This document shows positions 1,848 to 23,905 of a stretch of DNA of 23,905 nt, one piece after another. The stretch is from positions 1 through 23,905 of IMG/VR virus record IMGVR_UViG_3300046010_002608; one strand, given 5' to 3'. Each line of letters begins with the position of its first letter. Positions within the stretch are counted from its first letter, which is position 1. The DNA comes from a virus. The position numbers and the translations under genes were made by a program. The notes below the pieces were generated by a model. The model ran no database searches. It was not told the origin of the DNA and was given only the letters and a program-made list of their open reading frames with translations.

Positions 1848-2579
1848 TTAATTAAAACCCATATTATCCCTGTTATCAGGAATGCTACGATTATTAGATT
1901 CATAAGTTTGTAAATTTAAATCAATAAAATGTTGACAAGCCTTCTCAATACTAAAATCTTCAGTTACTTCGTAAAGACTAAATTCTAATTTTCTGTCTTT
2001 TTCGTCATTAATGTTAGTAAACTCATACATAATATGAGGAATAAACTTTAACTTATCGTCAGGAATAATTCCTAGTTTATGAGTATAAGAACCTTGCTTT
2101 ACTTGATTAGGATTGTCAGCAGTAGTTAAACAATCAATGCCACATTTCACAAATAAGTTAGCCAAGTTATCTAAATCAGGAAGCTTACTAGTATAGATAT
2201 CGTAAAATCTTAGGCCTATCATAATCTTTTTACCTGTTGTATCTATCTTAGCAGGCAGTTGTTTTTCAAATGCATTGTGAAACAAAGTGTGAAGTTCTTT
2301 TACTATTTTACTCCTAACAGAATGATGAATACCTACATAAATCTTTTGAGCATTAATAGACATCATTCTTGGTTTGCCTGCAGTTTTAGAATTTTTAACA
2401 ACTCTTTCTCCTAGGCTATCCAAAAGAATTCCTTCTGGGCTGTAACTATATTTAGTAGTATCTTTGTATTTTTTAGGAACATCATCACTTGAATACCAGT
2501 ATTGGGCCCTTCTTTGCTCGCTTACCTTAATTTCAGTAGGATAATTTTTAATTACGCAAGTCCATTTTTTTAAAATCAT
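1848..2579 (-). CDS. RusA-like Holliday junction resolvase
   Basis: A 243-residue protein when started at 2579. An ATG exists at 2591, but the 2579 ATG overlaps the TGA of the upstream reductase gene as ATGA, the coupling used repeatedly in this window, so I prefer it. The centre carries the RusA active-site layout: LPDLDNLANLF at about 133-143 (D135, D137, N138), K145 and D149, then IIPDDKLKFI at about 171-180 (D174, D175). RusA dimers cut four-way junctions symmetrically, and phage versions act before packaging or in recombination. The protein is about twice the length of E. coli RusA. The first 115 residues are an extension I do not recognise, with basic and aromatic stretches that could bind DNA. 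The neighbours (exonuclease, polymerase) fit a recombination and repair role. RusA fold is likely; substrate is inference. Confidence 0.72.
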   Translation of the reverse strand: MILKKWTCVIKNYPTEIKVSEQRRAQYWYSSDDVPKKYKDTTKYSYSPEGILLDSLGERVVKNSKTAGKPRMMSINAQKIYVGIHHSVRSKIVKELHTLFHNAFEKQLPAKIDTTGKKIMIGLRFYDIYTSKLPDLDNLANLFVKCGIDCLTTADNPNQVKQGSYTHKLGIIPDDKLKFIPHIMYEFTNINDEKDRKLEFSLYEVTEDFSIEKACQHFIDLNLQTYESNNRSIPDNRDNMGFN

Positions 2580-4549
2580 AGAACCGTACATTTATCTGTA
2601 TCGCAAAATAACTCTGGCTTGCTGTCTTGATTAACTGTTCCTACATTAAAAGGCTTAATGCTTGAATTACGTTTGTTGTATTCCTCCTCAGTAATAGCCT
2701 CATAAGGCATTTGCTTGTAAGCGCCTGCTTCTGTTTTAGGCAAGAATGAAATTGCTTTTAAGTCGTACTTGTAGTAATCTAAAATAGCAGGAATTTCTTT
2801 AGCTTCTTCTGGTCTAAATGTTACAGTACAGCTTACCTGATTATCTGCCCACCATTTTTGAATAAATGCAGCTAAAGCTACTTGTTCCCAAATACTAACT
2901 TGCTCAATAGTTTTAGAGGCAATACTTACAGGAATTTCAACTACCATAGAACTAGGGTCATAAACATCTACTTCAATAGGGTAACCTGCATTTTCACAAG
3001 CTTTTAAAAGAGGAGAGTTTACTCCAATTCTTATTCTACGAATATAGTAATTGTTCTCTGGGTAATGCATGCCTGGAGTTGCTCCTGCTAATAAACTAAT
3101 AGTGCCACTAGGTTTAATACTTGTAGTCTTAATAGACTTAGGAATACATAACCAGTTAGAATAGATTTCATCATATTTTTGAACAGTTTTATAACCCTCA
3201 TCACACCACTGTCTGTAGGTTTCTAAGGTGTTATTTTCCAAAAACTGCGCAATACCTGTTTGAGATAATCCGATTCTTCTGTTTTTAAGAAGCACTCTAT
3301 TAGTGTCCTTATTATGTGTTTTAAGTAAGGTAACTGATTTTCCATACAGATAAGCAAATTTTAAAGTTCTCTTATAATCCTCAAGATTTTCGTGATTATG
3401 TGGAAATGTTTCTACTAGACAGCAAAGCTCTTTATCTTCCAAAGTTTGTTCAGCGCAAGGGTTGCAACCTACAGCTTTAGAATCTTTATTATTTACACCA
3501 TCTATCAGTCTTCCATACTTTTGAGCATTCTCTAGCCAAAAATAACCAGGCTCTCCATTAATTGCAGTTCTTTTAGCAGCCTCATTATAATTAGTTTTAA
3601 GGTCACAAAATACACTATTATTAGAAGTCCATCCATAACTAGCTCTACTAGGATTTATTTCGTAATTTTTTAAATCTAAGTACTCTTCATTATTTGCCTC
3701 TCCAAACATAATCTGAGCTGAACGTCTAACATTACCTGACACCACACATACACCTATAAGATTCATTATATCTGCAATATCAGTAGCAGTTAAAGTTCTA
3801 CCTTCTGCTTTGTTAAGAATAGATCTTAATTCTATATGCAATTTAATAAGAGGATCTGGTCCAGAGCTTATTCCTCCAAATGTTTTAATAGGTTCACCTG
3901 CTTTTCTAATTAGAGAGTAATCAAAATGAACAGTAAAAGCATCCATATCTCCTTGCTTAAAAGCATAAGATTCTAATAAAAGCTTTAAACTTTCTACCCA
4001 ACCTTCTCGTGTATCAGGAATTTGATAAGTAAACATTTCATTAGGTGAACTAGGCAAAGGACTTACAATTCTTAATTTTCCAGCACCTTTTACATCAAAT
4101 CCTACGCCTACACCAAGCATAGACATATCCATCATAAAACAGAAAGGTTTAGCAAAATCTTTATCTATATCTTTAGTAGATACAAATCCGCAGTTATTAG
4201 CTGCAGCTCCTAATCCCTTTTCAATAATAGGAGTACCTATTGCCCAAAGACCTCTACCTGGAGGTAAAAATTTAAAAGTAAATATTCTTGTAAACATTTC
4301 CTGCGCAGATTCTTGAGCTTTAAAATCATTCCAGCCCAACTCTTGGTTAAGAATATGTTTTTTTTGAATAGAGTAAATACCATTGACTACTCTTTCTACA
4401 GTTTCATGCCATCTTTCGTTTGTTCCATCTTCTTTTAGGCGTGAATAAGTCCTGTAGTAGGTAAGCTCTCCTAAGCCATTAAACCCAAAATTAACAGGTT
4501 CAGTAGAATACTTTTCTACAAATTTTTTGTCCAGTTGAAATTTTTCCAT
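2576..4549 (-). CDS. nrdJ: Class II (adenosylcobalamin-dependent) ribonucleotide reductase, monomeric RTPR type
   Basis: A 657-residue reductase that converts ribonucleoside triphosphates to dNTPs with a cobalamin-generated thiyl radical. The motifs follow the Lactobacillus leichmannii enzyme: C120 in NNCGFVS and C376 as the redox pair, N363, C365 and E367 in NPCAEQ as the radical cysteine and its partners, and a C-terminal CxxxxC (C649, C654) that recharges the active site. The 11-residue gap between the radical and second redox cysteines matches the family. It is somewhat shorter than the roughly 740-residue reference. No small (beta) subunit or activase gene is nearby, as expected for class II. 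The gene starts directly after the rIIB terminator and ends coupled to the RusA-like gene. Being cobalamin-dependent, it would work with or without oxygen but needs host B12. Confidence 0.92.
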   Translation of the reverse strand: MEKFQLDKKFVEKYSTEPVNFGFNGLGELTYYRTYSRLKEDGTNERWHETVERVVNGIYSIQKKHILNQELGWNDFKAQESAQEMFTRIFTFKFLPPGRGLWAIGTPIIEKGLGAAANNCGFVSTKDIDKDFAKPFCFMMDMSMLGVGVGFDVKGAGKLRIVSPLPSSPNEMFTYQIPDTREGWVESLKLLLESYAFKQGDMDAFTVHFDYSLIRKAGEPIKTFGGISSGPDPLIKLHIELRSILNKAEGRTLTATDIADIMNLIGVCVVSGNVRRSAQIMFGEANNEEYLDLKNYEINPSRASYGWTSNNSVFCDLKTNYNEAAKRTAINGEPGYFWLENAQKYGRLIDGVNNKDSKAVGCNPCAEQTLEDKELCCLVETFPHNHENLEDYKRTLKFAYLYGKSVTLLKTHNKDTNRVLLKNRRIGLSQTGIAQFLENNTLETYRQWCDEGYKTVQKYDEIYSNWLCIPKSIKTTSIKPSGTISLLAGATPGMHYPENNYYIRRIRIGVNSPLLKACENAGYPIEVDVYDPSSMVVEIPVSIASKTIEQVSIWEQVALAAFIQKWWADNQVSCTVTFRPEEAKEIPAILDYYKYDLKAISFLPKTEAGAYKQMPYEAITEEEYNKRNSSIKPFNVGTVNQDSKPELFCDTDKCTVL

Positions 4550-5791: not shown

Positions 5792-7947
5792 TCTTTTTCA
5801 GAAAGATTGGTTTTCAAACCTTTAAATTGAAGATACTCTACAAGTTCTTTTTCGCAATTTCTTACCTCGTCTATGCAAGAAAGCAAACCAGCATTTTCAA
5901 AATAAGTTTTAACTTCTGCCATTTTGTCATTAATTACCTGGTTGCTAAGCTTATGCGTAGTGCAAAACTCTAAAATTTCTTTTTCTGCGCCCCAATAAGG
6001 ACTAATTCCATTTTCTGAAACAAAATCAACAAGTTCTTGGTAAGTCTTTTTAATATGAATGTTAATAGCGCCAAACTGCTTAAACAACCTGTAAGTCTCT
6101 ATGTTTTCGTTAATTTTAATAGCAGAATAAATATCAGCCATTTTTTTATTTAGGCTTGTTTTACCTTCAAGAAAATCAGTTACATGATGAGCATTAGTCA
6201 TAAGCTTAAATTGCTTAATATTTGACTGGCTAATTTTGTAAATTTTTAAATTTTTAAAAGTAGTATGTCCATAAAAAGGTTTGTGATAACATAACATAGC
6301 AGCTGCTTTATACAACTCAGTGGTATTCTCTTGAGTACCATAAATAATAGTAAAGTCTTTTTGTTCCTCAAGTTTACCCTCATACATATTAAAAGTTAAA
6401 CTATCTAGATAATTACGACCAAAGTTATTAGCTATATTTACTATTCTTGCAGTAAACTTACCTTGTAATTTACGCTCAGCAAGGATTTTCTTGTAAGCTT
6501 CTTTGTAATCTACATCACTTGTTTCAGTAAATTCATCATCAGGAACTTCTATTAAATCAAAATCCTTCAAAGTATCAAACCAAGTAAGACCTTCGTTATA
6601 ATAAGGAAGTGCAGATTTCTTGTCTTCAACATCCTCTATCCCATAATTTCTTACAACAATAAATCCTTTAGGATAAGTTTTAAACAAAAACAAGGCTTTT
6701 CTTGCTGACAATGTGCCTGCATAAGAGTAAATAGGAAGATCCTGTAAATCATGATAACTTGGGTTAGATGTTGAATACTCTAGATTTTTAGAAATTTTAG
6801 TTTTACTTCTTCTAGAATAATTACGATAAGGCGTAACTAGTTTTAAACCAAATCCTACAAACCAATGATCTAAACGACTTTTAATCTGAAGGGTTTCACC
6901 TGAAGCTGTAGTAAACGTAGCCTTTTCACCAACATTAGCAAAACTCCATTGATTAGAAAAAGTTTTAGAAACTTTATTACTTACGCAAACATACCATTTT
7001 GCATAGTCTTTTTCATTAGAAATTTCTTTTTCAATTTCTTTTCTAATACTTACTTTAGCTTTTTCTAGTTTTGTTAGAACTTTTTTCTTTACAGAATCAT
7101 TCCAAAACAAACTCTCACGGCTTAAGGTAGGTTGTAATTCACCTACATTAAATTTTAAACCTACATAGCAATTTAAAAAGGCATAACGATTTAAACCAAG
7201 TGCGTCAAAATCTATAGGGTAAGCAACTGTACCAAGCACAATATGTAAGTTTGAATGAGTACTTTGATTGGCTATAATGCAATGCTCATTCTCAAATTTT
7301 ACTTCAGCTTTAGGTCCATTAATGTTAATGTAATTAAAGTTCTTGAAATAAGTAAGCTGAGCAAAAATTGAATGTTGAAATGTACTTTTGTCATACTGCA
7401 TTTTAGCAGGTACAATAATTTCAGTTCCATTCTGGCGAGTAGTTTCTTTCTTTTCTAGTAAAGAAATTGCGCCTAGCTGAGTTTCATCAATATAGCAAAG
7501 ATACTTGTACTCAGTGCCTTCAAATACAGTTTTTACAAAGAAACTGTCTGTATAGGCAAAAGGTACCTTACTACCCAATCCGAAGCCTCCAGTCTGGTCA
7601 TTACTATCTCTCTTAGTAGAGCTCAAGTAATTACCATAAACAGTTTTCATTCTTTCAGGACTAAGGCCTACGCCAAAGTCCCGGATAATAAGCTGAGCAT
7701 CTACGCCTAGCAATCTATTTTCATTAATCCACTCAATCTCACCTACAGCATCAGGCTTCCCTGCTTCTATATGAGAATCCATTACATTAGAGGCTATTTC
7801 TCTAATGATTGAACCATAAATGTCTGAATACAAATTGGTTCGTAACATTTGAAATAACAATGGTAAGTTATCTGTGCTTACACCATAGTTTACTGTTTCA
7901 AATTCTTGGCTTTTCTTAACGTCTGTTTTAATTGTTTGAATTTTCAT
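5782..7947 (-). CDS. rIIA: rIIA-like GHKL ATPase
   Basis: A 721-residue protein whose first 140 residues form a Bergerat (GHKL) ATP-binding fold. EIASNVMDSH at 50-59 is the N-box (E50, N54), RDFGVGL at 89-95 is the DxGxG box and TGGFGLGSK at 119-127 is the ATP-lid glycine box. A QPTLSRES motif near residue 272 matches the second GHKL subdomain, where a lysine or arginine contacts the gamma phosphate. The rest is beta-rich and then charged and helical, as in other rIIA proteins. Size is close to T4 rIIA. It lies directly upstream of rIIB, the canonical pairing, and 2 bases after a small unknown gene. All ATP-site residues appear intact, so ATPase activity is likely. Its cellular partner is unknown. 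Confidence 0.88.
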   Translation of the reverse strand: MKIQTIKTDVKKSQEFETVNYGVSTDNLPLLFQMLRTNLYSDIYGSIIREIASNVMDSHIEAGKPDAVGEIEWINENRLLGVDAQLIIRDFGVGLSPERMKTVYGNYLSSTKRDSNDQTGGFGLGSKVPFAYTDSFFVKTVFEGTEYKYLCYIDETQLGAISLLEKKETTRQNGTEIIVPAKMQYDKSTFQHSIFAQLTYFKNFNYININGPKAEVKFENEHCIIANQSTHSNLHIVLGTVAYPIDFDALGLNRYAFLNCYVGLKFNVGELQPTLSRESLFWNDSVKKKVLTKLEKAKVSIRKEIEKEISNEKDYAKWYVCVSNKVSKTFSNQWSFANVGEKATFTTASGETLQIKSRLDHWFVGFGLKLVTPYRNYSRRSKTKISKNLEYSTSNPSYHDLQDLPIYSYAGTLSARKALFLFKTYPKGFIVVRNYGIEDVEDKKSALPYYNEGLTWFDTLKDFDLIEVPDDEFTETSDVDYKEAYKKILAERKLQGKFTARIVNIANNFGRNYLDSLTFNMYEGKLEEQKDFTIIYGTQENTTELYKAAAMLCYHKPFYGHTTFKNLKIYKISQSNIKQFKLMTNAHHVTDFLEGKTSLNKKMADIYSAIKINENIETYRLFKQFGAINIHIKKTYQELVDFVSENGISPYWGAEKEILEFCTTHKLSNQVINDKMAEVKTYFENAGLLSCIDEVRNCEKELVEYLQFKGLKTNLSEKDLV

Positions 7948-19643: not shown

Positions 19644-19659
19644 AATTGTTTTGGTTTAG

Positions 19660-19731
19660 CACACCAGATGGGACTCGAACCCATAACCTCTCGATCAAAA
19701 TCAAGGCTCTACCAATTAGAGCTACTGGTGT
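19660..19731 (-). tRNA. tRNA, probably tRNA-Gln(UUG), with a 6-base anticodon loop
   Basis: A cloverleaf of 72 bases without CCA. The acceptor ACACCAG/CTGGTGT pairs fully, the D-arm is GCTC-loop-GAGC with GG in the loop, and the T-arm is ATGGG TTCGAGT CCCAT. The region between D-arm and T-arm is only 21 bases. The anticodon stem CTTGA/TCGAG forms, but encloses six bases (TTTTGA) instead of seven. Placing U33 normally gives anticodon TTG. The discriminator base is G, and the gene is followed by CTA where CCA might be. It lies 10 bases after the 19742-20218 gene and is probably cut out of the same transcript. One missing base in the anticodon loop makes normal decoding uncertain. Confidence 0.78.
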
Positions 19732-22877: not shown

Positions 22878-23240
22878 TGGAGATGGGGAGAATTGAACTC
22901 CCGTCTTGCTCAGTATTAATCAAATGTTTTGTTTATAGCTTAGGATAATTCAAGGTTTAATCTTACTACCTTAGAATTCCAATAAAGAAGGGGCTAATCG
23001 GAAAAACCAATTAACTAATCCACCATCCTATTAGCTGGAATAGGAACCATTTCTTTGCAACTTTCTGTTACTAAGCAGTTGCAAGCTCTTCTGAAGACAC
23101 AAAGTTCATTGCATCTTCAAATGTGAAGTTTGATACTTCTACGTTTGTTTGTTTCCTATTAATTCATTATACAGAGTAAAATAGAAATCCTCTGTGCTAA
23201 ACATTTGCTAATAATCTGCCAATCTATACCTGTCATCCCC
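22878..23240 (-). ncRNA. ssrA: Transfer-messenger RNA (tmRNA)
   Basis: A complete one-piece tmRNA, which rescues stalled ribosomes by adding a degradation tag. The 5' end GGGGATGACAGG at 23240-23229 pairs with the 3' acceptor CATCTCC at 22885-22879. The T-arm is GGGAG TTCAATT CTCCC next to it, and CAAATGTTT/AAACATTTG supplies part of helix P2. Pseudoknot 1 is visible: ACAGAG/CTCTGT with loop TTTCTATT pairing AATAGGAAA at 23160-23152. About nine bases later an open frame starts at 23142 and ends in TAG at 23073-23071. The stop lies in the loop of a helix formed by TTGCAACT and AGTTGCAA, the usual P5 position. The tag reads VEVSNFTF...EELATA, about 23 residues, ending in LATA rather than LAA. 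The discriminator is followed by CTA, not CCA. A phage-borne ssrA is uncommon. Confidence 0.93.
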
Positions 23241-23693: not shown

Positions 23694-23767
23694 AATTACC
23701 CGTCTTTCCGAGTAGTCACTTATTCTTCTTCTAAGTTGTCAACCCATTATGGCTAAATAGGATTTAG

Positions 23768-23905
23768 TAGTCAGGACAGGATTCGAACCTGTATTCTCAT
23801 AGGTCGACCAATCCTATTTGTACTGAGAATCTACGTTGTTTTTGAGTTTGTACTTCACTCTAAACAACAGCTACCCCTCTGCCTTGTCATAACGCTCGTG
23901 AGGTT
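23768..23905 (-). ncRNA. Unclassified tRNA-like RNA (T-arm and D-arm-like hairpin, no recognisable anticodon arm), runs off window
   Basis: The 3' end is tRNA-like: T-arm ACAGG TTCGAAT CCTGT at 23792-23776, then CCTGACT, discriminator A and CTA. Upstream of it is a 7-bp stem ATTCTCA/TGAGAAT (23824-23830 with 23793-23799) enclosing TAGG ATTGGTCGA CCTA, which has the GG of a D-loop. Further upstream is a second long hairpin, GTTGTTT...GAGT / ACTC...AAACAAC at 23835-23868. I find no 5' strand that pairs well with CCTGACT before the window ends. It may be a tRNA with an insertion, a processed tRNA-like domain of a longer RNA, or a degraded tRNA. Confidence 0.45.

Follow-up and report, generated by a model that had tools for sequence, protein, structure and literature searches.

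Does an environmental phage carry a tmRNA of its own in IMGVR_UViG_3300046010_002608, and what might the long peptide tag encoded there do beyond releasing ribosomes? The DNA under study (hereafter the window) comprises positions 1–23,905 of this IMG/VR record, a 23.9-kb fragment. Phage tmRNAs have been described in mycobacteriophages Bxz1 and Wildcat and Bacillus phage G (PMC4131195), in the Melnitz methylophage (PMC9004378) and in huge phages (PMC7162821). Ideas put forward on why phages carry them are that host proteins are recycled and that hijacked ribosomes are maintained (PMC9004378). The minus strand of the window from 23240 to 22878 almost certainly encodes a one-piece tmRNA with a 23-residue tag (Table 1). 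The best overall explanation, which we consider probable, is a functional phage tmRNA with a docking element in its extended tag.

An earlier note, made from the letters alone, had placed a tmRNA here, and the Rfam model RF00023 matched the window at 23240–22875 (−) from end to end (model positions 1–374, 44.1 bits, E = 2.5e-16, 551 bases searched). This match was seen at a permissive threshold and lies three bits below the gathering score (44.1 versus 47), which is a curator's threshold and not a biological feature; relatives score 54.7–98.6 bits. Because the score is just below 47, the default Rfam scan of the window was silent on the tmRNA and returned the same two tRNAs that were the only calls by ARAGORN. 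The check proposed in the earlier note thus held for Rfam, at a sub-cut-off score, and failed for ARAGORN, which finds no tmRNA. The complete architecture described there was borne out, with full pairing in the acceptor (7/7) and T stem (5/5), a pseudoknot 1 (PK1) of 6 + 8 bp, and the stop codon in the loop of an 8-bp P5. In an H-type pseudoknot search, the PK1 score of 19.2 was matched by none of 200 shuffles, and its layout is common to the relatives. The gene does not encode CCA, its 3′ end being A-CUA. The acceptor has the G3-U70 wobble, which is the alanine identity element and a mark of alanine tRNAs and tmRNAs. With this acceptor, the T arm, P2, PK1, the A at −4 and the P5 stop loop, the RNA resembles canonical one-piece tmRNA (RF00023, Bacteroidota form); it differs in falling just under the Rfam cut-off and being missed by ARAGORN.

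Table 1 Coordinates of the tmRNA gene and its parts in the window
Feature	Position	Strand	Evidence or detail
tmRNA gene	22878..23240	−	5′ G 23240, discriminator A 22878; RF00023 full length
Acceptor stem, 5′ strand GGGGAUG, with G3 of G3-U70	23234..23240	−	7/7 pairs with 22879–22885
Acceptor stem, 3′ strand CAUCUCC	22879..22885	−	7/7 pairing with GGGGAUG
T arm GGGAG-UUCAAUU-CUCCC	22886..22902	−	5/5 stem pairs
P2, 5′ strand CAAAUGUUU	23199..23207	−	Pairs with AAACAUUUG at 22921–22929; read directly off the sequence
Pseudoknot 1	23153..23195	−	PK search score 19.2
PK1 S1, 6 bp	ACAGAG 23190–23195 / CUCUGU 23171–23176	−	PK search
PK1 S2, 8 bp	UUUCUAUU 23180–23187 / AAUAGGAA 23153–23160	−	PK search
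10-nt spacer ACAAACAAAC ahead of resume codon	23143..23152	−	A at −4 (A86 equivalent), C at −5
Tag coding sequence, GUA resume codon ... GCU UAG	23071..23142	−	Encodes (A)VEVSNFTFEDAMNFVSSEELATA
Second in-frame stop UAA after tag	23068–23070	−	Directly follows UAG
Conserved tag core FTFEDAMNFVS	23095..23127	−	Alignment of nine tags
P5 helix UUGCAACU/AGUUGCAA, 8 bp	23055..23084	−	Stop codon in its loop

The tag depends on where translation resumes. Rfam's own alignment sets UAAUA directly before GGA at the resume site, which would yield GNKQT-stop, five residues ended by an early UAG. Judged against its relatives, this placement is wrong and the resume codon is GUA (23142–23140), because PK1, the 10-nt spacer, the A at −4 and the aligned relatives all agree. 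With GUA, S1 keeps 6 bp and S2 8 bp ahead of the 10-nt spacer, at the full PK score of 19.2, whereas GGA itself sits within S2, so that S2 drops to 4 bp and the score to 13.9; in relatives, 8–12 nt separate PK1 from the resume codon. The A at −4 occurs in 27/27 tmRNAs listed, the window's among them. In E. coli tmRNA this base (A86) is essential and a change of U85 to C is harmless (PMC2481249); the window has C at −5. L126, the relative with the nearest tag, likewise resumes at GUA (UAAAC, then GUA GAA AAA UCU ..., giving VEKSTFTFEDAMAFVSSEELVLA). Rfam's GGA comes close to the displaced resume codon that the earlier note had named as one finding against its reading, but the room for PK1 and L126 speak against it. 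The GUA frame is open for 23 codons, up to a UAG inside the P5 loop, and gives (A)VEVSNFTFEDAMNFVSSEELATA-stop, in line with the predicted tag of about 23 residues ending in EELATA. A −1 frameshift that would link a start at GGA with the ELATA frame was dropped, as direct reading shows no plausible slippery heptamer.

Relatives were gathered independently of the tag, using a SNF2-like helicase profile built from four sequences, which gave 80 loci; endolysin and single-helicase queries had yielded no or few relatives. Among 50 helicase-profile records, RF00023 identified nine full-length tmRNAs, six of them distinct, and all carry tags of 26–33 residues (AKTTSERVAEGEAILASLFADVAIAA, AKTRSQRVAEGEAILASIFQTEAVAA, AKTQSQRVSEGEAILASLFSDVAVAA, VKSQSERVAEGASIIAMAFASEVAVAA, AKTKSERVAEGGAIIASLFAGRVAVAA and GNNNEAKVVSLGAMTFNDAIAMVSNTVEFELAA). 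No tmRNA was found in 31 shorter records from the same profile, mostly small fragments. Nor was a tmRNA detected in two isolate phages akin to the carriers, Leptolyngbya phage Lbo-JY46 and Flavobacterium phage immuto (of whose 160-kb genome the first 150 kb were scanned), and a tblastn search of the phage collection with the tag, a search of little power at 23–33 residues, returned no match. ARAGORN made no call for L114, L115 and L119. A further tmRNA, in L131 at about 5934–6330 (tag ATELSAFTFDDAMNFVSQDELVEAAI), escaped both ARAGORN and an Rfam scan at E 0.001. The annotation of phage tmRNAs is probably incomplete.

The tags fall into two classes defined by internal cores. In class A, the core is [FM]xF[END]DA[MI]xxVS, in which F, D, A, V and S never vary among nine aligned tags (the window, L115, L125, L126, L131, L132, L134, L189 and L192) of 23–33 residues, carried by crAss-like phages and a T4-like phage. 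The core of sister class B is S[EQ]RV[AS]EGxxI[LI]A, where S, R, V, E, G, I, A and F keep fixed positions. A first pattern of degenerate codons, built on the class A core, had 10 viral matches, seven of them in tmRNAs, and a second class A pattern placed nine of its 10 viral matches there; in 84,980 cellular (bacterial and archaeal) genomes, the first pattern matched 28 times, never in a tmRNA. For class B, 23 of 25 viral matches were short tag frames, 19 of these with a T arm and acceptor downstream, and the other two lay inside one 540-residue protein. Such patterns fix the core residues, and core conservation among their matches is partly by construction; this does not apply to the high tmRNA fraction, to the absence from cellular genomes or to the synonymous-site variation. 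Uncorrected pS and pN are 0.58 and 0.35 for class A and 0.35 and 0.19 for class B, a pN/pS that is only moderately low, and the closest pair (L189/L192) differs by four synonymous changes versus one nonsynonymous change. Outside the tmRNA, the peptide of the tag is absent from every phage genome tested. The conserved internal core suggests an added recognition element.

The C-terminus is kept more loosely. The window tag ends in EELATA and its same-class relatives in VLA (L126), AAI (L131), VAA, EAA or LAA; class B tags end in AVAA, AIAA or ALAA. The LATA end, which the earlier note had taken as the key feature, did not hold up as such, since the last residues vary between relatives and ATA is one variant among them. 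The same note's statement that Bacteroidota tags are of the GENNYALAA type was sound: calls in Bacteroidota genomes (30 in one set, one an evident mis-frame) give 8–10 residues (GENNYALAA, ANDYSYAMAA, DNNYSYRLAA), and the comparison of hosts with related phages that it had proposed sets these coreless tags against phage tags of 23–33 residues with the core. Bacteroidota tmRNA tags end in ALAA, AMAA or RLAA; the window tag differs from them in its 23 residues and internal core. Sequences in the PDB include none matching the core. A helix of 8 residues is weakly predicted for the tag (pLDDT 69), and an amphipathic-helix explanation was dropped, the hydrophobic moment being no better than that of shuffled tags.

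The carrier would be an environmental phage with replication genes like those of crAss-like phages of Bacteroidota. Primase, DnaB, SNF2 helicase and UDG are common to the window and its relatives, and head genes are absent from the fragment. Its helicase has 40 phage matches, mostly to Flavobacterium (29) and uncultured phages; in relative G007, the terminase matches crAss-like, Bacteroides, Flavobacterium and Cellulophaga phages. Unlike the helicase, the ribonucleotide reductase at 2579–4549 (−) has its best match (49%) in actinobacterial phages, and these differing affinities suggest gene exchange across hosts; given this match, a Bacteroidota host is no more than likely. The record of L126, G083, encodes a T4-like portal and capsid whose genes are close to those of Flavobacterium phage immuto, and another carrier of the core, G084, is crAss-like; with T4-like head genes in G083, the tag class therefore crosses phage lineages.

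Other RNAs were also observed in these records. A tRNA gene in the window (19659–19731, −) cannot be named by ARAGORN because its anticodon loop has only six bases (UUUUGA), and a tRNA in L125 (5314–5385) likewise received a two-letter anticodon call. The window also shows, at 23760–23905 (−), a T arm and an acceptor end that resemble those of a tRNA (CAGGTTCGAATCCTG TCCTGAC), with long insertions upstream; this element is recognised neither by ARAGORN nor by Rfam at E 0.1 and could represent an intron-containing or a degenerate tRNA. A group I intron-like match (42.6 bits, cut-off 50) lies in L119 at 2538–2711, about 1.2 kb downstream of a class B tmRNA.

We propose ribosome rescue as the underlying activity because of the tmRNA anatomy. 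During infection, host AlaRS would charge the phage tmRNA with alanine and host SmpB would bind it, and the charged RNA would enter ribosomes that have stalled on mRNAs that are cut or lack a stop codon; alanine plus 23 residues would be added before release of the ribosome at UAG-UAA. SmpB was found in 0/28 tmRNA-bearing phage records, while the same search found it in 10/14 controls, so the phages presumably borrow host SmpB; an SmpB-like match in G033 was dropped (19 bits, below the cut-off, with seven stops). The tag would have two parts: a loosely conserved C-terminus, short and hydrophobic as is usual for SsrA (LATA; LAA, VAA or AVAA in relatives), and the upstream core, lacking in host tags. 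That the core is a docking element has, in our estimate, a somewhat better than even chance. It would most probably dock a specific partner (a protease, adaptor or chaperone), giving the phage control over the destination of tagged products. More tentatively, and a little short of an even chance, environmental phages, mostly crAss-like, may have evolved a distinct class of tags of 23–33 residues, in which the class A or B core is a phage-specific docking signal to a partner outside the SsrA route.

As candidate partners for the core we infer a chaperonin or, from the host, a protease or an adaptor. Phage ClpP as a general partner was dropped, occurring in 1/28 records; G083, which has 23 tRNA genes, encodes a ClpP-family protease at 26849–27355 (E 1e-30), away from its head genes. 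In L194 (38–2225), a class A tmRNA lies between phage groEL (Cpn60) and groES (Cpn10) genes, and the records of L189 and L191, which have the same tag as L194, also hold a Cpn10 gene.

The strongest competing explanation, although an unlikely one, is an ordinary degradative tmRNA, in which the extra length is a tolerated spacer and host ClpXP needs the C-terminal hydrophobic residues alone. An LAA-, VAA- or AVAA-like end in most relatives and a tag length that differs between them, from 23 to 33 residues, would fit such a spacer, but a spacer would not be expected to retain F-x-D-A-[MI]-x-x-V-S across crAss-like G084 and T4-like G083 or RV-x-EG across the sister class, and 8–10 residues suffice in host tags. 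Somewhat less likely still, the tag could, as the earlier note had suggested alongside a possible replacement of host ssrA, divert or protect rescued peptides, its ATA end escaping ClpXP and its core routing them elsewhere, for example to GroEL. Nonstandard ends in the window, L126 and L131 are consistent with diversion, as are the position of the L194 tmRNA and a Cpn10 gene in 4/28 tmRNA-bearing records; against it, most relatives with the same core have a tail ending in AA, and the chaperonin linkage is restricted to few records. A decayed or frameshifted tmRNA that resumes at GGA, with the long frame a relic, is very improbable: Rfam's alignment and resumption at GGC in relatives L115, L125, L132 and L134 favour it, but it would leave just 14 nt between S1 and the resume codon versus 22–28 nt in relatives and weaken PK1, it forgoes the GUA match to the spacer, the A at −4 and the L126 resume codon, and the long frame is open and conserved up to the stop in P5.

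A docking role for the core has a parallel in cells. Gur and Sauer in 2008 and Ge and Karzai in 2009 reportedly found that the extended Mycoplasma/Mesoplasma SsrA tag is read by Lon. Like that tag, the window's is longer than usual and has a nonstandard end, with recognition extending past the last residues there and proposed to do so here; by this analogy with the Lon-specific tag, the conserved core suggests a second contact in the window tag. The Mycoplasma tag ends in NYAFA and the window's in EELATA, and in the window the gene is a phage's and the partner a candidate. Cellular Mollicutes evolved the Lon tag after loss of ClpXP, and two papers describe the move of the Mycoplasma tag to Lon (PMC9382460; PMC3985003). 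As in known phage-borne tmRNAs, a tailed phage carries the gene. Other phage tmRNAs called by ARAGORN differ in having tags of 8–16 residues without cores; these came from a T-arm/acceptor DNA pattern, dropped as a route to relatives, that fetched short-tagged and often permuted tmRNAs. Melnitz-type tmRNAs are two-piece and the window's is one-piece.

By its architecture, the window RNA belongs to the tmRNA family; what is new is its tag. Such tmRNAs are overlooked or wrongly framed by the tools in use, ARAGORN passing over those of the window, L114, L115 and L119 and Rfam setting the wrong frame in the window. The tag is conserved across unrelated phages and was not found in host tmRNAs, which makes a testable question of what binds the core. 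Such a tag would also mean that selection in phages acts on the tag itself, beyond ribosome release.
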